Shown in pieces: positions 7,944-49,837 of a DNA stretch of 64,000 bases. The first letter of the stretch is position 1. Every line of letters starts with the position of its first letter. Origin of the DNA: Streptomyces sp. NBC_01717. GTDB lineage: Bacteria; Actinomycetota; Actinomycetes; Streptomycetales; Streptomycetaceae. Location: NCBI RefSeq assembly GCF_036248255.1, contig NZ_CP109178.1, positions 7,321,001 to 7,385,000 on the forward strand, written 5' to 3'. The translations under genes and the position numbers were made by a program. The notes beneath the pieces are model-generated. The model ran no database searches, was not told the origin of the DNA, and saw nothing but the letters and a program-made list of their open reading frames with translations.

Positions 7944-8642
7944 ATGCCGACCCTGATCCTCGTACGCCACGGACGCTCCACCGCCAACACGGCCGGGGTG
8001 CTCGCGGGCCGGACCCCCGGTGTCGCGCTCGACGAGCGCGGCGCCGCGCAGGCCGCCGCGCTGCCCGGGCGACTCGCCTCACTGACCCTCGCCGCCGTCG
8101 TCACCAGCCCCCTGCAGCGGTGCCGGGAGACGCTGCAGCCGCTGCTCGACGCCCGGCCCGGGCTGCCGCTGCACACCGAGGAGCGGATCAGCGAGTGCGA
8201 CTACGGCGACTGGGCGGGACGCAAGCTCGCGGAACTCACCGACGAGCCGCTGATGGCCGTCGTGCAGCAGCACCCCTCGGCCGCGGCGTTCCCCGGCGGG
8301 GAGTCGATGCGCGCCATGCAGGCACGTGCCGTCGACGCGGTACGGGACTGGAACGCCCGGATCGAGGCCGAGCACGGCGACGGAGCCGTGTACGTCATGT
8401 GCTCGCACGGCGACATCATCAAGTCCCTCGTCGCCGACGCACTCGGGATGCACCTCGACCTCTTCCAGCGGATCCAGGCCGAACCCTGCTCGGTCACCGC
8501 GATCCGGTACACCCGGCTACGGCCCTTCCTGCTGCGGCTCGGCGACACCGGGGACTTCGCCTCGCTGGAGCCGCGCGAACAGAGTGCAGGCACCGATGCG
8601 GATACGGATGCGACGGTCGGGGGCGGCGCTGGGGCGCCGTGA
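7944..8642 (+). CDS. Histidine phosphatase / phosphomutase-like protein (MSMEG_4193 family)
   Basis: This is a 232-residue protein of the phosphoglycerate-mutase/histidine-phosphatase fold. The phosphoacceptor motif LVRHGRST (R8-H9-G10) is at the start and the second catalytic His is in VMCSHGDIIKS. SPLQRCRET supplies the conserved Arg. I recognise the actinobacterial subfamily named after MSMEG_4193, annotated only as a putative phosphomutase. It starts a group of collinear genes: this phosphatase, then DUF3090 at 8750, then a kinase-like protein at 9304 and mshC at 10473. The acidic, Gly-rich C-terminal tail (about 20 residues) is unconserved in appearance. The substrate is unknown. Confidence 0.85.
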   Translation: MPTLILVRHGRSTANTAGVLAGRTPGVALDERGAAQAAALPGRLASLTLAAVVTSPLQRCRETLQPLLDARPGLPLHTEERISECDYGDWAGRKLAELTDEPLMAVVQQHPSAAAFPGGESMRAMQARAVDAVRDWNARIEAEHGDGAVYVMCSHGDIIKSLVADALGMHLDLFQRIQAEPCSVTAIRYTRLRPFLLRLGDTGDFASLEPREQSAGTDADTDATVGGGAGAP

Positions 8643-8749
8643 TCGCTTCGCGCAGTAGGGTGGACGCGCCGTAGGCGCCTTTCCGGGGGACCGACTTCCC
8701 GGACCCCGGCCGCCCCTCATTTGCCGTCAATACTCAAGGGAGACAGGAC

Positions 8750-9340
8750 GTGTCCCGTCAGGTGTTCCTCTACGACCCCCCGGACCGTTTCGTGGCCGGT
8801 ACGGTCGGGCTGCCTGGACGTCGTACGTTCTTCCTGCAGGCCTCCTCAGGCGGACGTGTCACCAGCGTGGCCCTGGAGAAGACCCAGGTCGCCGCGCTCG
8901 CCGAACGGATCGACGAACTCCTCGACGAGGTGGTGCGGCGGACCGGCGGGAACTCCCCGGTGCCCGCCGTGGCACCGATGGATGTCACCGACACCGCGCC
9001 GCTCGACGTGCCCGTCGAGGAGGAGTTCCGGGTCGGCACCATGGCACTCGCCTGGGACGGCGAGGAGCAGCGCATGATCGTCGAGGCGCAGGCCCTGGTC
9101 GAGCTGGACGCGGACTCCGACGACGATCTCGCGGAGGCCGAGGAGCGGATGCTGCAGGACGAGGAGAACGGTCCGCCGATGCTCCGGGTCCGGCTCAGCG
9201 GCGCGCAGGCCCGCGCGTTCGCCAAGCGCGCCCTGGACGTCGTCAACGCAGGCCGCCCGCCGTGCCCGCTGTGCAGCCTGCCGCTCGACCCGGAAGGACA
9301 TGTATGCCCGCGCCAGAACGGATACCGCCGGGGAGCCTGA
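8750..9340 (+). CDS. DUF3090 family zinc-ribbon-tailed protein
   Basis: This 196-residue protein starts at a GTG behind AGGGAGACAGG (MSRQVFLYDPPDRFVAGTVG). The first 150 residues form the DUF3090 domain, with strand-rich segments such as RRTFFLQA and an acidic helix region (ELDADSDDDLAEAEER). The tail carries a compact cysteine cluster, C172-P-L-C175 and C186 with H184 nearby, which could bind one zinc. It overlaps the downstream kinase-like gene by 37 bases, so expression is probably coupled. The family is almost confined to actinobacteria and has no known activity. Confidence 0.85.
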   Translation: MSRQVFLYDPPDRFVAGTVGLPGRRTFFLQASSGGRVTSVALEKTQVAALAERIDELLDEVVRRTGGNSPVPAVAPMDVTDTAPLDVPVEEEFRVGTMALAWDGEEQRMIVEAQALVELDADSDDDLAEAEERMLQDEENGPPMLRVRLSGAQARAFAKRALDVVNAGRPPCPLCSLPLDPEGHVCPRQNGYRRGA

Positions 9341-10149
9341 CGGACGCCGAGCTGGTCAACCTGCTCACCAAGGGGCAGCTCACCGTCCTCGGTCAGGTCG
9401 GGGGGGCATCCAACGCGGTGCTCTACTGCACGGTCGCGTACGAGGGCGAGGAACGGACCTGCGTCTACAAGCCCGTCGCCGGGGAACAGCCGCTGTGGGA
9501 CTTCCCCGACGGCACGCTCGCCCAGCGGGAGGTGGCCGCGTACGAGATCTCCGAGGCGATGGGGTGGGGGCTGGTGCCGCCGACCGTGCTGAGGGACGGA
9601 CCGTACGGGGAGGGCATGTGCCAGCTCTGGGTCGAGGCGCCTGCCGGGGAATCGGCGGACGGTGACTCACCGCTGCTGGCGCTCGTCGAGGACGAGGAGC
9701 CGGCGGACGGGTGGAAGGCCGTCGCCCTCGCCGAGGTGGGCGAGGGGAAGACGGCCCTGCTGGTGCACGCGGACGATCCGCGGCTGCGGAGGCTCGCGGT
9801 GCTCGACGCGGTGATCAACAACGGTGACCGCAAGGGCGGCCACCTGCTGCCCGCGCCCGGCGGCCGGCTGTACGGCATCGACCACGGTGTGACATTCAAC
9901 GCGGACGACAAGCTGCGGACGCTGCTGTGGGGGTGGGCGGGCGAGCCGTTGACGGCCGAGGCCGTCGAGGCGCTGGGGCGGTTGGCGGAGGAACTCGTGC
10001 CGGGGACGGCGCTGGTCACTCGACTGGCGGAGCTGATCACTGCGGTGGAGATCGATGCGTTGCGCGGGAGGGTGGAGGGGCTGCGGGTGGCGGGGCGGCA
10101 CCCGGAGCCGAGTGGGGGGTGGCCGTCCATACCGTGGCCGCCGGTGTGA
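9304..10149 (+). CDS. SCO1664-family protein, distant PI3/PI4-kinase-like
   Basis: This 281-residue protein starts at the ATG at 9304, inside the DUF3090 gene. Motifs recall the phosphatidylinositol-kinase-like fold: a glycine-containing loop (GQVGGASNAV), a possible ATP-contacting Lys56 in CVYKPVAG, a catalytic-loop-like NNGDRKGGHLL (D175-R-K) and a metal-loop-like YGIDHGVTF (D193-H-G). These correspond to DRHNxN and HIDFG of true lipid kinases. The family (SCO1664) is known in databases for a suspected distant relation to PI3/PI4-kinases. No substrate, protein or lipid, has been established. Its position between DUF3090 and mshC is what makes it interesting. Confidence 0.82.
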   Translation: MPAPERIPPGSLTDAELVNLLTKGQLTVLGQVGGASNAVLYCTVAYEGEERTCVYKPVAGEQPLWDFPDGTLAQREVAAYEISEAMGWGLVPPTVLRDGPYGEGMCQLWVEAPAGESADGDSPLLALVEDEEPADGWKAVALAEVGEGKTALLVHADDPRLRRLAVLDAVINNGDRKGGHLLPAPGGRLYGIDHGVTFNADDKLRTLLWGWAGEPLTAEAVEALGRLAEELVPGTALVTRLAELITAVEIDALRGRVEGLRVAGRHPEPSGGWPSIPWPPV

Positions 10150-10472
10150 CGGGCGAGACGTCGTTCTTCCCCTGCCCGCCCCTCCCCGGAACCGGGGCTC
10201 CGCCCCGTACCGCGCCGGTCCTCAAGCGCCGGACACGCTGGGTTCTTTGGGGCTCTGCCCCGGCCCCCACTCCTCGAGTCGAGCGCCGGAGGGGCTGGGA
10301 TGGGACTGGCTGGAATTGGCGGTCGGGGCGTCTTTCAGGGGTCCGGGGCCGTGCCCCGGTCCGGGAAGGGGCGGCGCGGGCATAGCACACCCGGCACGCG
10401 CAAGACCGCCTCTCCGGCCAGGATCCCGTATCCGGTTCGTATCCGGAAGCAACGTCCGGTTACGCTCATGAC
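10150..10472. other. Intergenic region of 323 bases upstream of mshC
   Basis: No credible gene lies here. The first 200 bases are filled by three related GC-rich hairpin modules, annotated separately as a repeat. The last 60 bases before the mshC ATG (ATCCCGTATCCGGTTCGTATCCGGAAG) are less GC-rich and carry a repeated TATCCGG, and probably contain the mshC promoter. I cannot name -10 and -35 boxes with confidence. Confidence 0.6.
10194..10357. repeat. Triple GC-rich intergenic hairpin repeat
   Basis: Three copies of a small palindrome of pattern GGGGCnnnGCCCC occur at 10194-10206, 10249-10261 and 10345-10357. The first two are each followed by an (A/G)AGCGCCGGA-type segment (10224-10233, 10281-10290). 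Related elements occur at 22088-22153, where the first palindrome appears exactly reverse-complemented, and at 59244-59287. Confidence 0.65.
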
Positions 10473-11702
10473 ATGCATGCCTGGCCCGCTTCTGAGGTCC
10501 CCGCCCTGCCTGGCAAGGGCCGCGACCTTCGGATCCACGACACCGCGACCGGCGGACGGATCACCCTTGACCCCGGTCCCGTCGCCCGCATCTACGTCTG
10601 CGGCATCACGCCGTACGACGCGACCCATATGGGTCATGCGGCGACCTACAACGCGTTCGACCTCGTTCAGCGCGTGTGGCTCGACACCAAGCGGCAGGTT
10701 CACTATGTCCAGAATGTGACCGACGTGGACGATCCGCTGCTGGAGCGGGCCGTGCGCGACGGTCAGGACTGGACCGAGCTCGCCGAACGCGAGACGGCCC
10801 TCTTCCGCGAGGACATGACCGCCCTGCGCATGCTTCCGCCGGAGCACTACATCGGCGCGGTGGAGGCGATACCGGGCATCGTCCCGCTCGTCGAACGCCT
10901 CCGGGACGCCGGCGCCGCCTACGAGCTCGACGGCGATGTGTACTTCTCCGTCGAGGCCGACCCGCACTTCGGCGAGGTGTCCAACCTGGACGCCGAGGCG
11001 ATGCGGCTGCTGTCCGCAGAGCGCGGCGGCGACCCGGAGCGCCCGGGCAAGAAGAACCCGCTCGACCCGATGCTGTGGATGGCCGCCCGCGAGGGCGAGC
11101 CGAGCTGGGACGGGGCCTCGCTCGGCCCGGGCCGGCCCGGCTGGCACATCGAGTGCGTGGCCATCGCCCTGGACCACCTCGGCATGGGCTTCGACGTCCA
11201 GGGAGGCGGGTCCGACCTCGCCTTCCCGCACCACGAGATGGGCGCCTCGCACGCCCAGGTGCTGACCGGCGAGCACCCGTTCGCAAAGGCGTACGTGCAC
11301 GCCGGGATGGTGGCCCTGGACGGCGAGAAGATGTCGAAGTCCCGGGGCAACCTGGTCTTCGTGTCGGCGCTGCGCCGGGACGGTGTGGATCCGGCCGCGA
11401 TCCGGCTGGCCCTCCTCTCGCACCACTACCGGTCGGACTGGGAGTGGACCGATCAGGTGCTCGCCGACGCCGTGGAGCGGCTCGGACGGTGGCGTTCCGC
11501 CGTCTCCCGGCCCGACGGACTGTCCGCCGACGCCCTGGTCGAGGAGGTCCGCGAGGCCCTCGCCGACGACCTGGACGCCCCGGCCGCCCTGGCCGCCGTG
11601 GACCGCTGGGCCGAGCGCCAGAACGCCGAGGGCGGTAAGGACGAGGGTGCACCCGGTCTCGTCTCGCGTACCGTCGACGCGCTACTGGGTGTCGCGCTCT
11701 GA
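10473..11702 (+). CDS. mshC: Cysteine:GlcN-Ins ligase MshC (mycothiol biosynthesis)
   Basis: This enzyme joins cysteine to the amino group of GlcN-Ins, using ATP, in the third step of mycothiol synthesis. The 409-residue protein is a cysteinyl-tRNA-synthetase-like class I fold. Cys43 in [10 protein letters not shown] is the expected zinc ligand, THMGHA (51-56) is the HIGH-type motif, and [10 protein letters not shown] (KMSKS at 286-290) is the second ATP motif. LAFPHHEMG supplies the His pair typical of CysRS/MshC. It lacks the anticodon-binding C-terminal domain of true CysRS and has the usual MshC length. It follows the DUF3090 and kinase-like genes in the same direction and ends at a strong terminator. 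Confidence 0.96.
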
Positions 11703-11733: not shown

Positions 11734-11780
11734 GACCGGCCTTGGACTTCTCCACGAAGTTCGGGGCCGGTCCTGTTTTG
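11734..11780 (+). terminator. Rho-independent-like terminator after mshC
   Basis: GACCGGCC at 11734-11741 pairs with GGCCGGTC at 11765-11772. An inner stem, ACTTC at 11746-11750, pairs with GAAGT at 11756-11760. The sequence CCTGTTTTG follows, so it has a short U-run, which is unusual in this GC range. Confidence 0.75.
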
Positions 11781-11819: not shown

Positions 11820-14800
11820 ATGCAATCATCAACGCGCATCAGAGTGGCGGCAGTTGCAGCTCTGCTGGGACTGGTCGCCGTCTTCGCGGGGCCTGGCAGC
11901 GCACAGGCCGAGTCGGCCGAGCCCGACGCCACGACGGTCGGTGATGTCACCGGCTTCCTTGCCGACGGGCCCGTCTACCACCTCGAAGCCGGCACCGCCG
12001 AGGCCCGTGTCAGCTTCGTCTCCGCCGAGACCTTCCGTATCGAACTGGCCCCGGACGGTACGTTCGCCGACCCGACCGGCGACGACATAGTCCTGCCTCA
12101 GGGCGCCCCGCCGCACACCCGGTGGAAGGAGCGGAGCGACCGCTACGAACTCTCCACCGGCAGCATCACCCTGCGCGCCTACAAGTCGCCGCTGCGCTTC
12201 GAACTCCGGCGGGCCGACGGCAGCCTCGTCTGGTCCGAAGCCAAGGGGCTGAGCTGGGACGGGAAGCGGACCACCCAGACCCTGGCCCGCGGCGCCGACG
12301 AGCAGTTCTACGGCGCCGGGATGCAGAACGGCCGCGGCAACACCTCGCACCGCGGCCAGACCGTCGAGGTCGGCGTCGACTACAACTGGGACGACGGGGG
12401 CCACCCCAACTCCGTGCCGTTCTACCTCTCCTCGGCCGGATACGGCGTCTTCCGTAACACGTACGCACCCAACACCTACGCGTTCACCGATCCGGTGACC
12501 ACCAGCGCGCAGGAACAGCGCTTCGACGCCTACTACTTCGCCGGCGACGGTGCCAAGGACGTCATCGGCCAGTACACGAAGCTCACCGGCAAGCCCTTCC
12601 TGCCGCCCGTGTACGGAATGGAGATCGGCGACGCCGACTGCTATCTGCACAACGCCAACCGCGGCGAGCGCCGCACCCTGGACGCCCTGAAGGTCGCCGA
12701 CGGTTACGTCGAGCACGACATGCCGAACGGCTGGATGCTCGTCAACGACGGCTACGGCTGCGGATACGAGGACCTCGCCGAGACCTCCAAGGGCCTCCAG
12801 GACCGCGGCATGCAGCTCGGGCTGTGGACCGAGGACGGCATCGACAAGATCGCCGACCAGGTCAAGGCCGGTCAGCGGGTGGCCAAGCTCGACGTCGCGT
12901 GGGTCGGCTCGGGCTACAAGTTCGCTCTCGACGGCTGCAAGGACGCGTACAAGGGCATCGAGGACAACAGCGACGCCCGCGGCTTCACGTACGCTCCCGA
13001 GAGCTGGTCGGGGGCGCAGCGCTGCGGCGTCCAGTGGTCCGGTGACCAGTACGGCACCTGGGACTACATCCGCTGGCAGATCCCGACCTACGCGGGCGCC
13101 ACGATGTCCGGCCTCGCCTACACCACCGGCGACGTGGACGGGATCTTCGGCGGCAGCGCCAAGACGTACACCCGTGACCTGCAGTGGAAGATGTTCCTCG
13201 GCACCACGATGACCATGGACGGCTGGGCGGCCAGCGACAAGCAGCCCTACCGGTACGGCGAGCCGTACACCACCATCAACCGGGACTACCTCAAGCTCAA
13301 GGAGTCGCTGCTGCCGTACCAGTACTCGTACGCACACGAGGCGACCAAGACCGGCGTCGGCATGGTCCGCCCGCTCGTCCTCGAATACCCGGACGACCCC
13401 AAGGCGGCGACGGACGCGGCGAAGTACGAGTTCATGTCCGGCGAGGACTTCCTCGTCGCACCCGTCTACCAGGACAGCACCCGACGCGACGGGATCTATC
13501 TGCCGAAGGGCACCTGGATCGACTACTGGAGCGGCCGGACGTACGAGGGGCCGACCACCGTCGACCACTACAGTGCGCCGCTCGACACCCTCCCGCTCTT
13601 CGTGAAGGCCGGTGCCAGCGTGCCGATGTGGCCGGGCATCCGCTCGTACCAGGACCGCACGAGCGACTCCCCGCTGGCCTGGGACATCTACCCGCAGGGC
13701 AGGTCGTCCTTCACGCTGTACGAGGACGACGGCGTCACCCGCCGGCACCGCGACGGCAAGTACGCGACCCAGCGGGCGGACGTCGACGCACCCATCCGGG
13801 GCGCGGGCGACATCACCGTGAACATCGGTGAGAGCAAGGGGGACTTCACCGGCAAGCAGCGCAGGCGACCGTACGAGTTCAGCGTGCACACCGGGTCGGC
13901 ACCGAGGGCCGTCAAGCTGAACGGCACACTGCCCCGGCTCGGCTCCGCGGCCGCGTACCGGACCGCGAAGCAGGGCTGGTGGTACGACCAGGACGACCGC
14001 GGTGGTGTGGTGAAGATCAAGACCGCCCCGCTGAGCACAGACCGGAAGTTCAGCCTGAAGCTGGAGGGCACCAGCGCCGTCGGCGGCAGGAAGGCGTCCA
14101 CCACGGCCGTCGTCTCCGCGCCGGACGCGCAGGAGGTCGGGGCGGGAGTCGAAGGCACCGTGGCCGTCGATGTCACCGCGGGCAGCGCCGATGTGACGAA
14201 CGCAGCGGTCACCCTGGACGTCCCCGAGGGGTGGCAGGTCACCCCGGCGAAGACCGTGGACCGGATCCCGGCGGGCACCACCCGGCGGGTCGAGCTGGCG
14301 GTCACTCCGGCGATGGACGCCGTGGCCGGGGAGGCCCGGATCACCGCGGTCGCCCGTTACCGGGCATCGGGTGAACTCCGTACCACCGTCCAGCGGTTCG
14401 CGGCCGGGGTGATGCCCCAGCCCCCGACCGCCGACGCCTGGGCGAGCGATCTGGTCTGGCTGAAGTCGACCAACGGCTACGGGCCGGCCGAGCGTGACCG
14501 CAGCAACGGCGAATCGGGTGCGACCGACGGGCACACCCTCACCCTGGCCGGGAAGACGTACGAGAAGGGGATCGGTTCTCACGCCGACTCCGACATCGAG
14601 GTCTATCTCGGCGGGCGCTGCACCACGTTCACCGCCGACGCGGGGATCGACGACGAGATCAACGGTTACGGCGAAGTGGCCTTCTCCGTCGAGGCGGACG
14701 GCAAGGTGCTGTGGACGTCGCCGAAGGTGACCGGGGCGTCGGCGACCGTGCCGGTCGAGGTGGACGTCGCCGGTGCGCGCCATGTGCACCTGAAGGTCAC

Positions 14801-14867
14801 CGACACCAACGGTTCCAAGACCGGTGACCACGGGGACTGGGCCGCGGCGCGGTTCAGCTGTTCCTGA
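11820..14867 (+). CDS. Secreted glycoside hydrolase family 31 with NEW3 and NPCBM domains
   Basis: This 1015-residue exported enzyme has a signal peptide in residues 1-30 (basic start, AAVAALLGLVAVFAGPGSAQA). An N-terminal beta-sandwich and a GH31 barrel follow. The predicted nucleophile is D358 in AKLDVAWVG and the acid/base is D409 in WSGDQYGTWDY. After the barrel and a proximal C-terminal beta-domain come a NEW3-like domain (about 765-860, GWQVTPAKTVDRIPAGTTRR) and a C-terminal NPCBM carbohydrate-binding domain (about 870-1015, YEKGIGSHADSDIEVYLGG). NEW3/NPCBM tails are common on alpha-galactosidase-like enzymes and on some GH31 alpha-N-acetylgalactosaminidases. The exact sugar is therefore uncertain: alpha-glucosidase, alpha-galactosidase and alpha-GalNAcase are all possible. 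Confidence 0.88.
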   Translation: MQSSTRIRVAAVAALLGLVAVFAGPGSAQAESAEPDATTVGDVTGFLADGPVYHLEAGTAEARVSFVSAETFRIELAPDGTFADPTGDDIVLPQGAPPHTRWKERSDRYELSTGSITLRAYKSPLRFELRRADGSLVWSEAKGLSWDGKRTTQTLARGADEQFYGAGMQNGRGNTSHRGQTVEVGVDYNWDDGGHPNSVPFYLSSAGYGVFRNTYAPNTYAFTDPVTTSAQEQRFDAYYFAGDGAKDVIGQYTKLTGKPFLPPVYGMEIGDADCYLHNANRGERRTLDALKVADGYVEHDMPNGWMLVNDGYGCGYEDLAETSKGLQDRGMQLGLWTEDGIDKIADQVKAGQRVAKLDVAWVGSGYKFALDGCKDAYKGIEDNSDARGFTYAPESWSGAQRCGVQWSGDQYGTWDYIRWQIPTYAGATMSGLAYTTGDVDGIFGGSAKTYTRDLQWKMFLGTTMTMDGWAASDKQPYRYGEPYTTINRDYLKLKESLLPYQYSYAHEATKTGVGMVRPLVLEYPDDPKAATDAAKYEFMSGEDFLVAPVYQDSTRRDGIYLPKGTWIDYWSGRTYEGPTTVDHYSAPLDTLPLFVKAGASVPMWPGIRSYQDRTSDSPLAWDIYPQGRSSFTLYEDDGVTRRHRDGKYATQRADVDAPIRGAGDITVNIGESKGDFTGKQRRRPYEFSVHTGSAPRAVKLNGTLPRLGSAAAYRTAKQGWWYDQDDRGGVVKIKTAPLSTDRKFSLKLEGTSAVGGRKASTTAVVSAPDAQEVGAGVEGTVAVDVTAGSADVTNAAVTLDVPEGWQVTPAKTVDRIPAGTTRRVELAVTPAMDAVAGEARITAVARYRASGELRTTVQRFAAGVMPQPPTADAWASDLVWLKSTNGYGPAERDRSNGESGATDGHTLTLAGKTYEKGIGSHADSDIEVYLGGRCTTFTADAGIDDEINGYGEVAFSVEADGKVLWTSPKVTGASATVPVEVDVAGARHVHLKVTDTNGSKTGDHGDWAAARFSCS

Positions 14868-14937: not shown

Positions 14938-15999
14938 TCAGTCCTCCGATGAATCCGGCGAACCGGATGAGTCCTCGGGACCGGAACCGGTGTCGTCGTC
15001 GGAGGGCCTGTCCGGGGCGGACTCGCCCGTGGCTCCCTGCGGCGGTCCCGGCTCCGGTTTCGGCGGCTTCGGCGGCCTGGTCCGTCCGCTCGACGTGTCG
15101 CGCAGGTACGATGCGTCGCCGCTCTCGGTGGCATGCCCGCCGGGCGCCTGGCCGGGCGCGATGTCCCGGCGCCGCAGATACCGCTCGAACTCCCGGGCGA
15201 TGGCCTCGCCCGACGCCTCGGGGAGCTCCGCGGTGTCCCTGGCCTCCTCCAGCGTCTGCACATACTCGGCCACTTCACTGTCCTCGGCGGCCAGTTGGTC
15301 GACCCCGAGCTGCCAGGCACGCGCGTCCTCGGGCAGTTCGCCCAGCGGGATGCGCAGCCCGATCAGGTCCTCCAGGCGGTTCAGCAGCGCCATGGTTGCC
15401 TTCGGGTTCGGCGGTTGCGACACATAGTGCGGCACCGCCGCCCACAGGCTCACCGCGGGCACACCGGCATGCGTGCAGGCCTCCTGGAGGATGCCGACGA
15501 TGCCCGTCGGGCCCTCGTACCGGGTCTCCTCCAGGTCCATGGTCCGCGCCAGGTCCGGATCGGAGGTGACCCCACTGACCGGCACGGGGCGGGTGTGCGG
15601 GGTGTCGCCGAGCAGTGCGCCCAGAACCACCACCATCTCCACGCCCAGCTCATGGGCGAAGCCCAGGAGCTCGTTGCAGAACGAGCGCCAGCGCATCGAC
15701 GGCTCGATACCGCGGACCAGGACGAGATCGCGGGGTTTGTCCCCACCGACGCGGACCACCGAGAGCCGCGTGGTCGGCCAGGTGATCTTGCGTACCCCGC
15801 CGTCCAGCCACACCGTCGGCCGGTTGACCTGGAAGTCGTAGTAGTCCTCGGCGTCGAGCGCCGCGAACACCTCGCCCTTCCATTCCCGGTCCAGGTGTGC
15901 GACCGCTGTGGAAGCGGCGTCACCTGCGTCGTTCCATCCCTCGAACGCGGCCACCATGACCGGGTCGATCAGCTCGGGAACCCCCTCGAGCTCGATCAC
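14938..15999 (-). CDS. PAC2 family protein
   Basis: The 353-residue protein begins at the GTG at 15999 (VIELEGVPELIDPVMVAAFEGWNDAGDAAS), with GGAGG about seven bases upstream. A much longer in-frame extension lacks family character. The PAC2 domain, related to archaeal and eukaryotic proteasome assembly chaperone 2, spans about residues 1-270. Family segments include GDAASTAVAHL, LVLVRGIEPSMRW and VVVLGALLGDTPHTRPV. The C-terminal 60 residues are disordered, Pro/Asp-rich and unconserved in appearance. Bacterial PAC2 proteins have no proven role. A proteasome link is tempting in an organism that has PrcBA, but it is unproven. Confidence 0.85.
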   Translation of the reverse strand: MIELEGVPELIDPVMVAAFEGWNDAGDAASTAVAHLDREWKGEVFAALDAEDYYDFQVNRPTVWLDGGVRKITWPTTRLSVVRVGGDKPRDLVLVRGIEPSMRWRSFCNELLGFAHELGVEMVVVLGALLGDTPHTRPVPVSGVTSDPDLARTMDLEETRYEGPTGIVGILQEACTHAGVPAVSLWAAVPHYVSQPPNPKATMALLNRLEDLIGLRIPLGELPEDARAWQLGVDQLAAEDSEVAEYVQTLEEARDTAELPEASGEAIAREFERYLRRRDIAPGQAPGGHATESGDASYLRDTSSGRTRPPKPPKPEPGPPQGATGESAPDRPSDDDTGSGPEDSSGSPDSSED

Positions 16000-16205
16000 C
16001 CAGGCCTCCTTCCGAAGTTCCCTTGCGTACGCACCAACCTTACGGCTTCCGGCCTCTCCCGCCGCAGCCCCTGTGCACGACCGGGTGAACCCGGCCCCAC
16101 GAGGTGCATCACCGGTCCAACCAGGGCATCTGTCTCCACATTCATCCGAGCTGTGTCCCGGGGATTTCGTCTCAACTCTGGACGTTGGGGCTGTCGCACC
16201 GCTAT

Positions 16206-16236
16206 ACATCGGATGACCGAAACAGAGGTCCGATGT
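16206..16236 (+). promoter_or_regulatory. Paired operator-like sites upstream of the fuconate operon
   Basis: ACATCGGATGA at 16206-16216 and TCCGATGT at 16229-16236 each match most of the perfect palindrome ACATCCGATGT found upstream of the GntR gene (22933-22943). They lie 20-50 bases before the ATG at 16256, a position suited to repression. Confidence 0.55.
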
Positions 16237-16255
16237 TATTCCCCTGGGGGCGCAC

Positions 16256-17602
16256 ATGAGTCAGACCGTCACGGACTTCGAGGTCCACGACATCCGCTTT
16301 CCCACCTCGGAGCAACTGGACGGCTCGGACGCCATGAACCCCGATCCCGACTACTCCGCCGCCTATGTCGTCCTGCGTACCGATACCTCGCTCGACCCGG
16401 AAGCGGACGGAACCGTCATGGAGGGCCATGGCTTCTGCTTCACCATCGGCCGCGGCAACGAGGTCATGGCAGCCGCCATCGAAGCGATGCGCCCGTACGT
16501 GATCGGTCGCCCGGCCCCCCGTACCGCGGCCGATCTCGGCGCGCTGTACCGCGAGCTCACGCATGACTCGCAACTGCGCTGGCTCGGCCCCGAGAAGGGC
16601 GTGATGCACATGGCGGCCGGGGCGGTCGTCAACGCAGCCTGGGACCTGGCCGCCAAGCAGGCGGGCCGACCCGTCTGGCAGTTCCTCTCCGAGATGACGC
16701 CGCAGGAGCTCGTCTCCCTCGTCGACTTCCGCTACCTCACCGACGTCCTCACCCCCGACGAGGCCCTCGAAATCCTGCAAGCCGCCGAACCGGGCCGCAC
16801 CGAGCGCGCGGAACGGCTGCGCGCCGAGGGCTACCCCGCGTACACCACCTCGCCCGGCTGGCTCGGCTACTCCGACGACAAGCTGGTCCGGCTTGCGAAG
16901 GAGGCCGTCGCCGACGGCTTCACCCAGATCAAGCTGAAGGTCGGCGGGGACCTCGGCGACGACATCCGCAGACTCGCCTTGGCCCGCGAGGCCGTCGGAC
17001 CTGACATCAGGATCGCCGTCGACGCCAACCAACGGTGGGACGTCGCCGACGCGGTGGAGTGGATGACCGCTCTCGCGCCGTACGACCCGCACTGGATCGA
17101 GGAACCGACCAGCCCCGACGACATCCTCGGCCACGCCGCCGTACGGGCCGGCCAGCCGATCAAGGTCGCCACCGGTGAACACGTAGCCAATCGCGTCGTG
17201 TTCAAGCAGCTGCTCCAGGCCGGCGCGGTCGACTTCGTCCAGATCGACGCCGCGCGCGTGGCGGGCGTCAACGAGAACCTGGCGATCCTGCTGCTCGCCG
17301 CCAAGTTCGGCGTGCCGGTCTGCCCGCACGCGGGCGGCGTCGGACTGTGCGAGCTGGTGCAGCACCTGTCGATGTTCGACTATGTGGCCGTCTCCGGCAG
17401 CTGGGAGAACCGCGTGATCGAGTACGTCGACCATCTTCACGAACACTTCGCCGACCCGACCGTGATCGAAGCGGGGCGTTACGTCGCCCCGCGCGCCCCG
17501 GGCTTCTCCGCCCGGATACTCCCCGCCTCGATCACCGCACACCGCTACCCGGAGGGCCCCGTATGGCAGGCCCGCCACACGCCTGAGGAGGCCGACCGAT
17601 GA
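16256..17602 (+). CDS. L-fuconate dehydratase (enolase superfamily)
   Basis: This is a predicted 448-residue enzyme that dehydrates L-fuconate to 2-keto-3-deoxy-L-fuconate. The N-terminus ([21 protein letters not shown]) is highly characteristic of L-fuconate dehydratase. The barrel shows [12 protein letters not shown] with the KxK base, DANQRW with the first metal ligand, IEEPTSPDD and a His in TGEHVANR. It is the first gene of a tightly packed operon and its stop overlaps the next start (ATGA, 17599-17602). The operon continues with a dehydrogenase and an ABC transporter. Other aldonate dehydratases of the mandelate-racemase group are the alternative, but the N-terminal match argues for fuconate. 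Confidence 0.87.
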
Positions 17603-42156: not shown

Positions 42157-43668
42157 ATGACCGTACGGCGAGTAATGGGCATCGAGACGGAGTACGGCAT
42201 CTCCGTGCCCGGCCACCCCAACGCCAATGCCATGCTCACCTCGTCCCAGATCGTCAACGCCTACGCGGCGGCGATGCACCGGGCGCGACGCGCCCGCTGG
42301 GACTTCGAGGAGGAGAACCCGCTGCGAGACGCGCGAGGCTTCGACCTCGCCCGCGAGACCGCCGACTCCAGTCAGCTGACCGACGAGGACATCGGCCTCG
42401 CCAACGTCATCCTCACCAACGGAGCACGGCTCTACGTCGACCATGCGCACCCCGAGTACAGCTCGCCGGAGATCACCAACCCGCGGGACGCCGTCCTCTG
42501 GGACAAGGCCGGCGAACGCATCATGGCGGAAGCCGCCGAACGCGCGGCCCAGCTGCCCGGCGCCCAGCCGATCCACCTCTACAAGAACAACACCGACAAC
42601 AAGGGCGCCTCGTACGGCACGCACGAGAACTACCTGATGAAGCGGGAGACCCCGTTCTCCGACATCGTGCGCCACCTGACCCCGTTCTTCGTCTCCCGCC
42701 AGGTCGTCACCGGTGCCGGCCGCGTCGGCATCGGTCAGGACGGTCACGAGCACGGCTTCCAGATCAGCCAGCGGGCGGACTACTTCGAGGTCGAGGTCGG
42801 CCTGGAGACCACGCTCAAGCGCCCCATCATCAACACCCGCGACGAGCCACATTCCGACGCCGAGAAGTACCGCCGCCTCCATGTGATCATCGGCGACGCG
42901 AACCTGTCGGAGATCTCCACGTATCTCAAGCTCGGCACCACGGCGCTCGTTCTGTCCATGATCGAGGACGGCTTCATCAATGTCGACCTGGCCGTCGACC
43001 AGCCGGTGCGCACCTTGCACCACGTGTCCCACGACCCCTCGCTGCAACATCTGATCACGCTGCGTAGCGGTCGGACGCTCACCGCGGTGCAGCTCCAGAT
43101 GGAGTACTTCGAGCTCGGCCGCAAGTACGTCGAGGAGCGGTACGGGGCGGACGCCGACGAGCAGACCAAGGACGTCCTGATCCGCTGGGAGGACACCCTC
43201 AACCGGCTGGAGAACGATCCGATGAGCCTCTCCGGGGAGCTCGACTGGATCGCCAAGCGTGAGCTCATGGAGGGCTACCGCCGGCGCGACAGCCTGGACT
43301 GGGACGCGCCCCGGCTGCACCTGGTGGACCTCCAGTACGCCGACGTGAGGGCCGAGAAGGGCCTCTACAACCGTCTGGTGGCCCGCGGCAAGATGAAGCG
43401 CCTGCTGGACGAGAACGAGGTCGAGCAGGCCCGTACGAAGCCCCCGGAGGACACCAGGGCGTACTTCCGTGGCCGCTGCCTGGAACAGTACGCGGACGAC
43501 GTCGCCGCTGCCTCCTGGGACTCGGTCATCTTCGATCTGCCGGGCCATGACTCGTTGCAGCGGGTGCCGACGATGGAACCCCTCCGAGGGACCCGTAACC
43601 ACGTCAAGGAGCTCCTGGACCGCTGTCGTACGGCGGAAGAGCTGGTCCGGGTGCTGTCCGGCGGCTGA
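42157..43668 (+). CDS. dop: Pup deamidase/depupylase Dop
   Basis: Dop deamidates the C-terminal Gln of Pup to Glu and also removes Pup from substrates. It is a 503-residue glutamine-synthetase-like enzyme. Catalytic features include [10 protein letters not shown] (metal-binding Glu near 10-12) and the nucleophile-type D95 in [15 protein letters not shown]. The Dop-specific loop (about 42-78, [17 protein letters not shown]), absent from PafA, is present, and [16 protein letters not shown] is the nucleotide-site segment. The start at 42157 has GGAGG upstream. It lies 120 bases before pup, whose C-terminal Gln makes Dop necessary in this organism. Confidence 0.96.
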
Positions 43669-48475: not shown

Positions 48476-49837
48476 ATGGACCGCCGCATTTTCGGGCTGG
48501 AGAACGAGTACGGCGTCACGTGCACGTTCAGGGGACAGCGCCGACTGTCTCCTGACGAAGTGGCGCGCTACCTCTTCCGCCGTGTTGTGTCATGGGGCCG
48601 CAGCAGCAATGTCTTTCTGCGGAACGGCGCCCGCCTCTACCTCGACGTGGGATCGCATCCGGAATATGCAACCCCCGAATGCGACAATCTGACCGAGCTG
48701 GTCACCCACGACAAGGCAGGCGAGCGCATTCTCGAAGGCCTGCTCGTCGACGCCGAACGCCGCCTGCACGAGGAGGGAATCGCGGGCGACGTCTATCTCT
48801 TCAAGAACAACACCGATTCGGCGGGAAACTCCTACGGGTGTCACGAGAACTACCTCGTGGCGCGACACGGAGAATTCTCCCGGCTCGCGGACATCCTCAT
48901 TCCTTTCCTCGTCACGAGGCAGCTGCTCTGCGGAGCGGGCAAGGTGCTGCAGACCCCGCGCGGCGCGGTCTACTGCGTCAGCCAGCGTGCCGAGCACATC
49001 TGGGAGGGCGTCAGTTCCGCGACGACGCGCTCCCGTCCGATCATCAACACACGTGACGAACCGCACGCCGACGCGGAGCGGTACCGCCGCCTCCATGTCA
49101 TCGTCGGTGACTCGAACATGTCCGAGACGACGATGCTGCTCAAGGTCGGCGCGACGGACCTGGTGCTCCGGATGATCGAAGCGGGCACGGTGATGCGCGA
49201 TCTGACACTGGAGAACCCGATCCGGGCGATCCGCGAGGTCAGCCACGACATCACGGGGCAGCGCAAGGTCCGCCTCGCCAGTGGCCGCGAGGCGTCGGCC
49301 ATCGAGGTGCAGCGCGAGTACTACGAGAAGGCCGCGGACTTCGTCGATCGCCGAGGCATCCGCACCGGCACCGTCGCCCAGGTCCTGGAGCTGTGGGGGC
49401 GCACGCTCGACGCGATCGAGGCCGAGGACCTCGACCGGATCGACACCGAGATCGACTGGGTGATGAAGTACAGGCTCATCGAGCGGTACCGGGCCAAGCA
49501 CAACATGACCATGTCGCATCCGCGGGTCGCCCAGATAGATCTCGCGTACCACGACATCCACCGTCGGCGCGGGCTGTACTACCTGCTGGAGCGGAAGGGG
49601 CAGGCAGCCCGTATCTGCAACGACCTGAAGATCTTCGAGGGCAAGTCGGTGCCCCCGCAGACCACCCGGGCGCGGCTGCGCGGCGACTTCATCCGAAGGG
49701 CGCAGGAGCAGCGGCGGGACTTCACCGTCGACTGGGTCCATCTCAAGCTCAACGACCAGGCACAGCGCACGGTGTTGTGCAAGGACCCGTTCCGTTCGGT
49801 GGACGACCGAGTGGAGAAGCTGATCGCGGGTATGTGA
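48476..49837 (+). CDS. pafA: Pup ligase PafA
   Basis: PafA attaches Pup, through its C-terminal Glu side chain, to lysines of target proteins using ATP. It is 453 residues, a glutamine-synthetase-like fold close to Dop but lacking the Dop loop. [11 protein letters not shown] carries the metal-binding Glu9. D57 in [16 protein letters not shown] is the catalytic aspartate. [18 protein letters not shown] and [15 protein letters not shown] form the nucleotide site. The C-terminal domain ends [21 protein letters not shown]. The start follows the MFS stop by nine bases. A hairpin ends the gene. Confidence 0.97.

Follow-up and report, generated by a model that had tools for sequence, protein, structure and literature searches.

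A conserved histidine phosphatase, DUF3090 protein and kinase-like protein encoded upstream of mshC in Streptomyces: candidates for a phosphorylation cycle

We analyzed a stretch of 64,000 nucleotides (the window) from the 10.2 Mb genome of Streptomyces sp. NBC_01717 (contig NZ_CP109178.1, positions 7,321,001 to 7,385,000) and focused on three genes upstream of mshC, a gene for synthesis of the antioxidant mycothiol. These genes, together termed the trio, encode a histidine phosphatase of the phosphoglycerate mutase (PGM)-like type (P; 7944..8642, 232 amino acids), a DUF3090 protein with a GTG start codon (D; 8750..9340, 196 amino acids) and a kinase-like protein of the PI4K2/Fam20 type (K; 9304..10149, 281 amino acids). 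They are followed by mshC itself (10473..11702, 409 amino acids), coding for the cysteine:glucosaminyl inositol (GlcN-Ins) ligase of mycothiol synthesis. All four genes lie on the plus strand. The ATG of K at 9304 is located within D, which ends at 9340, resulting in an overlap of 37 bases, and 323 bases separate the stop codon of K from the start of mshC. A consensus scan of the plus strand revealed no terminator-like hairpin between P and mshC; a hairpin with a T-rich tail was found 3' of mshC (11734..11772, plus strand), as a consensus match only, in a scan that returned 3 sites in this region against 1.3 expected. The original prediction, made from the DNA letters, had described four co-directional genes with this overlap and had singled out individual residues in the three proteins. 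Reading frames and translations bear out both.

The proteins of all four genes score far above the cut-offs of curated NCBI families. P reached 323.1 bits against TIGR03848, the "MSMEG_4193 family putative phosphomutase" (cut-off 203.85), and also matched PF00300. D reached 260.9 bits against TIGR03847 (cut-off 117.25) and 231 against PF11290 (cut-off 27), K reached 347.8 bits against TIGR03843, the SCO1664 family (cut-off 172.4), and the mshC product 678.9 bits against TIGR03447 (cut-off 485.1). The names of the three trio families stand for no demonstrated function.

P carries the motif VRHGRST with H9, and the residues R8, H9, R59, E84 and H155 were invariant in all 40 aligned sequences. 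The position following RH is a glycine in 24 and an alanine in 16 of them. Among trio relatives, the literature found holds a published assay for Rv2135c only, which we take to be the mycobacterial P. Rv2135c shows phosphatase but no phosphoglycerate mutase activity and acts weakly on fructose-6-phosphate (PMC3866925). According to the published work this acid phosphatase is, like P, a histidine phosphatase with corresponding catalytic residues, and it differs from the P of the window in having RHA instead of RHG.

The nearest relatives of the window's K are Streptomyces proteins, as found by sequence search. Its motif set (K56, D175-R-K and D193-H-G) is intact, and these residues are invariant in the family alignment. 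The predicted model of K adopts a protein-kinase-like fold of the PI4K2/Fam20/HipA group, in which K56, D175 and D193 would serve as ATP-binding lysine, catalytic aspartate and metal-binding aspartate, roles taken from the alignment to PI4K2. A structure lacking an ATP site was thus not found, and the earlier description of K as kinase-like holds for the model. Within the K family, 40 of 43 members match the PI3/PI4 kinase profile PF00454 at E<=0.1 (best 8e-14) and 8 of 43 match HipA_2 at the same threshold. VIA-align together with the sequence profile placed phosphatidylinositol (PI) kinases nearest to K, and some K relatives already bear the name phosphatidylinositol kinase in databases. A search of the PDB with the single K sequence gave a chance match only, to triosephosphate isomerase (E 0.39). 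K nevertheless differs from each of its structural relatives. It shares 18-20% identity with the type II PI 4-kinases PI4K2A/B in structural alignment and lacks their CCPCC palmitoylation motif. Fam20 kinases are secretory enzymes that phosphorylate secreted proteins or xylose, whereas K is a short bacterial protein within a three-gene cluster. The match to HipA of the HipBA toxin-antitoxin system is clearly weaker, and the partners of K are a phosphatase and a DUF3090 protein. A literature match to cg1707 turned out to be unrelated.

The C-terminal end of D reads ...CPLCSLPLDPEGHVC... in translation and contains the cluster C172-x2-C175...H184-x-C186. This Cys/His cluster, already pointed out in the original prediction, was invariant in all 39 aligned sequences and is likely a metal site. 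The D model (predicted local distance difference test score, pLDDT, 89.5) tentatively suggests a PUR-like fold. The PUR-alpha fold consists of two beta-beta-beta-beta-alpha repeats, to which the D model gave a weak fold match at 6% identity. Foldseek with the model gave no match at E<=0.001, and PDB sequence searches with D, as single sequence or profile, gave none at E<=1. Unlike PUR-alpha repeats, D is acidic and carries a Cys/His tail; the family median isoelectric point of 4.56 speaks against nucleic-acid binding of the PUR-alpha type. Rv2134c, which we take to be a relative of D, appears in a list of BCG (Bacillus Calmette-Guérin) mutants whose sensitivity to rifampicin is altered (PMC11329110). 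This is one of several brief mentions in the literature found of D and K, or of proteins presumed to be related to them.

We compared the distribution of the genes in a phylum sample of 119 genomes drawn evenly (10 in class Actinomycetes, 109 outside) and in a class sample of 148 genomes. K was present in 56 of the 119 genomes and D in exactly the same 56 (Fisher value 2.5e-35, which ignores shared ancestry and is descriptive only); outside the class, 46 of 109 genomes have both. Reading positions by eye, we found a P match adjoining D in all 56 trio genomes, and P exceeded its family cut-off in 47 of the 119. In the class sample, K was found in 140 genomes and D in 139. A survey of 40 loci (39 genomes, that of the window among them) recovered P and K at every locus and D at all except the second copy in G008. 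The order P-D-K-mshC was found at 76 of 80 named loci, the remaining 4 being cut by contig ends; these loci are nearly all from Streptomyces and hence add no taxonomic breadth. The trio families reach beyond the phylum, with K in Chloroflexota (Kallotenue) and D, by source name, in Dehalococcoidia. The proposal that the three families recur together across actinobacteria is therefore supported by profiles and locus surveys alike, and profiles in which the genes were unlinked, named beforehand as the contrary outcome, were not found.

Several loci depart from the common arrangement (G, L and f mark our handles for genomes, loci and families). Genome G008 has a full trio and a second copy (L081) in which P and K abut without a local D, with mshC on another contig. 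In the ten genomes of family f59, D lies apart from K in seven and a second D is found elsewhere in three; at three K loci of the former kind (G209, G220 and G241), the P-K pair is kept without D. The distant or second D of this family (10 loci, L182-L191) adjoins one conserved open reading frame family, whose single scanned representative Pfam identified as a ferrochelatase. Since D occurs away from K in these genomes, we conclude that D can function separately from K or serves an additional role. In G246 (L201/L209), K is encoded on the strand opposite to that of P and D. Genome G189 (L196) keeps P, D and mshC, and no K was found there.

The link of the trio to mycothiol, which had been drawn from gene position, gave a two-sided result. 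Of the genes mshA to mshD, the marker used was mshC, scored at the family cut-off in the phylum sample and at E<=1e-150 in the class sample. In the phylum sample mshC exceeded the cut-off in 10 of 119 genomes, all of class Actinomycetes and all with the trio. The other 46 of the 56 trio genomes, all outside the class, have no mshC over the cut-off, and the trio is thus independent of MshC as defined by the model. We therefore rejected mycothiol as the whole story of trio function. Thirteen genomes beyond the class (G016, G031 and G102 among them) encode an additional CysS-like ligase whose score against the MshC model, about 345-426 bits, lies between those of plain CysS and true MshC; 12 of the 13 have the trio. 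This ligase is possibly a divergent MshC.

Within the class the picture is different. The first pass detected K in 140 and mshC in 134 of 148 genomes. We examined the flanks of seven genomes first scored as having K without mshC. In G234 a divergent mshC, overlooked at E<=1e-150, directly follows K, and in G136, G176 and G179 mshC is cut by a contig end; in G138, G229 and G239 K is cut by a contig end, and these were set aside. The resulting table holds 137 genomes with both genes, 7 with neither, 1 with mshC and no K (G189) and the 3 set aside. The genomes with neither are G142, G203, G205, G215, G226, G247 and G256; G205 is 60% complete, and the other six, from three families (f75, f68, f78), are at least 96% complete. 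The absence of K in these genomes holds at E<=0.001, that of mshC rests on E<=1e-150. In 117 of 131 class genomes with both positions listed, K is followed by mshC on the same strand at a distance of no more than 3 kb, and the median distance between the family matches is 48 bases. As K and mshC adjoin in most genomes, one deletion could take both. Other genomes, such as G141, G213 and G224, keep both genes although they are far apart. We conclude that, in the class, coupling of the trio to mshC is strong and more than a matter of position. In a 2013 review, SCO1664 is described as closely linked to mshC and possibly sharing the same network (PMC4255298).

How could the three proteins work together? 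K, as a member of the PI4K2/Fam20 branch, would probably be active as a kinase and add a phosphate from ATP, P would be the opposing phosphatase that removes it, and D would be an accessory that binds metal through its Cys/His site and holds or gates K and P. The substrate would most likely contain inositol, as a small molecule or as the head group of a lipid, and its pool would feed phosphatidylinositol and, in class Actinomycetes, mycothiol. Several observations point to an inositol-type substrate. PI kinases are nearest to K by VIA-align and sequence profile; inositol-phosphate synthase (PF01658) was found in 54 of 56 trio genomes; the trio follows mshC in the class, and the mshC product contains inositol. 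Furthermore, a published account names an inositol-lipid phosphatase as missing (PMC6506517). The alternative profile for inositol-phosphate synthase, PF07994, overlooked 8 of 10 Actinomycetes and was dropped as insensitive. We tentatively favor a cycle of kinase and phosphatase in which D is the accessory and an inositol-type small molecule or lipid the most likely substrate, and regard it as possible rather than probable. A narrower version appears unlikely: a bacterial housekeeping phosphoinositide or inositol-phosphate cycle, in which K, as a bacterial relative of eukaryotic type II PI 4-kinases, would have an inositol lipid or metabolite of the cell itself as its substrate, with P as one of the phosphatases missing from actinobacterial inositol pathways and D as a Cys/His-gated regulator. 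Here P might convert phosphatidylinositol phosphate to PI, or N-acetylglucosaminyl inositol phosphate (GlcNAc-Ins-P) to GlcNAc-Ins, and D might tie the cycle to the thiol or metal state.

A number of results weigh against the inositol-type cycle. The K of the window scores 16.7 bits against PF00454, under the gathering cut-off of 27.1. Its protein sequence contains no CCPCC-type motif (a pattern search of the DNA with a single possible encoding of it also gave no match, the protein sequence being the real evidence), and no membrane or lipid feature was found in K, the highest hydrophobic mean over 19 residues being 1.2. Foldseek ranked Fam20C first for the K model (E 7e-7), ahead of PI4K2-beta (6e-6); together with the HipA_2 matches in the family, this makes a protein or sugar substrate possible. 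Inositol-phosphate synthase is also common without the trio (33 of 63 trio-free genomes), and we know of no inositol-lipid evidence in Chloroflexota, where K occurs. The pooled counts take no account of shared ancestry, and the strict threshold that missed G234 makes a divergent mshC possible in some of the genomes with neither gene. Finally, the absence of K from G189 and the P-K pairs without a local D indicate that the trio is not strictly interdependent. A protein phosphorylation switch, which comes near the small phosphorylation switch of the original prediction, is almost as likely as the inositol-type cycle. Here K would phosphorylate proteins on Ser/Thr in the manner of Fam20C, CtkA or HipA, P would be its phosphatase and D a scaffold or substrate. 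The Foldseek ranking of Fam20C and the strict threshold behind the mshC absences in the class shift the balance slightly away from the inositol-type cycle and toward the switch.

Other explanations carry less weight. The name of TIGR03848, the invariant PGM-superfamily active site of P and the weak activity of Rv2135c on fructose-6-phosphate would fit a metabolic phosphomutase or repair cycle, with K making a bisphosphorylated primer or intermediate and P moving or removing phosphate in some sugar-phosphate pathway. Rv2135c is devoid of phosphoglycerate mutase activity, however, and families outside the trio lie within two genes of K or P at 6 of the 40 loci at most (mshC at 6, a fumarase-type lyase at 5), and we regard such a cycle, too, as unlikely. 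A dedicated mycothiol module, in which P would catalyze the MshA2 phosphatase step with K and D as its regulators, would account for the gene order at the named loci and for the coupling of K to mshC in the class even where the two are unlinked. It becomes improbable in view of the trio genomes that lack mshC over the cut-off, of which just 12 of 46 have the weaker MshC-like ligase, and of K and D in Chloroflexota. Least probable is a module of the Pup-proteasome system. PafA is the closest phylum-level fit to the trio among the outside families tested: its model, which also picks up Dop, gave matches at E<=0.001 in each of the 56 trio genomes and in 4 of the 63 that lack the trio (54 of 119 above cut-off). 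In the window, PafA-model matches lie about 32 and 38 kb from K, and a PAC2-family gene lies 3.2 kb past mshC. The agreement fails within the class, where ten genomes of family f66 have K and D without a PafA match, and two others, G142 and G256, encode PafA while lacking matches to K, D and mshC. We therefore rejected an obligatory link to pupylation and read the phylum-level pattern as shared ancestry. Our literature search found no paper that joins pupylation with phosphoglycerate mutase, kinase and gene neighborhood.

The original prediction had considered the trio an undescribed system. As a gene set it is not: all three families are catalogued by NCBI, the likeness of K to PI kinases is reflected in some database names, and the review cited above reports the linkage to mshC (PMC4255298). 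To our knowledge, and within the literature searched, three points are new: the structural placement of K in the PI4K2/Fam20 group, as suggested by its predicted model, the tentative PUR-like fold predicted for D, and the two-sided profile of a trio that is coupled to mshC inside the class and present without it outside. If K were a PI4K2-type kinase that is active on an inositol substrate, bacteria would possess a phosphoinositide-type cycle for their own use. Such a substrate would also provide candidates for phosphatase steps that are still missing and would account for a trio that accompanies mycothiol in one class and occurs without it elsewhere. If the protein switch were true, the trio would represent a widely conserved, unstudied signaling module.

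Beyond mshC, the window contains a glycosyl hydrolase family 31 gene with NPCBM domains (11820-14867, plus strand), followed by the PAC2-family gene (14938-16257, minus strand). By its place past mshC we take the PAC2 protein to be the counterpart of ParJ (SCO1662). K was considered as a candidate for ParJ and rejected, since the gene numbers in the review and the PAC2 gene put ParJ beyond mshC (PMC4255298). A PAC2 match is present at 67 of the 80 named loci, and a 2008 paper describes PAC2 genes near Pup-proteasome clusters (PMC2588565). The Pup-ligase model matches in the window are both on the plus strand; the one at 48482-49834 is above the cut-off (PafA), and the weaker one at 42400-43620 is probably Dop. 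Neighbors of the trio identified by Pfam across the 40 loci were lineage-bound or scattered, including UppS, RecO, ProRS, MGMT, luciferase-like proteins, acyl-CoA synthetase, electron transfer flavoprotein, ABC transporter and response regulator, among others. The fumarase-type lyase is the one such neighbor that recurs across five different families (L064, L065, L079, L096 and L098, in G086, G118, G092, G040 and G103).

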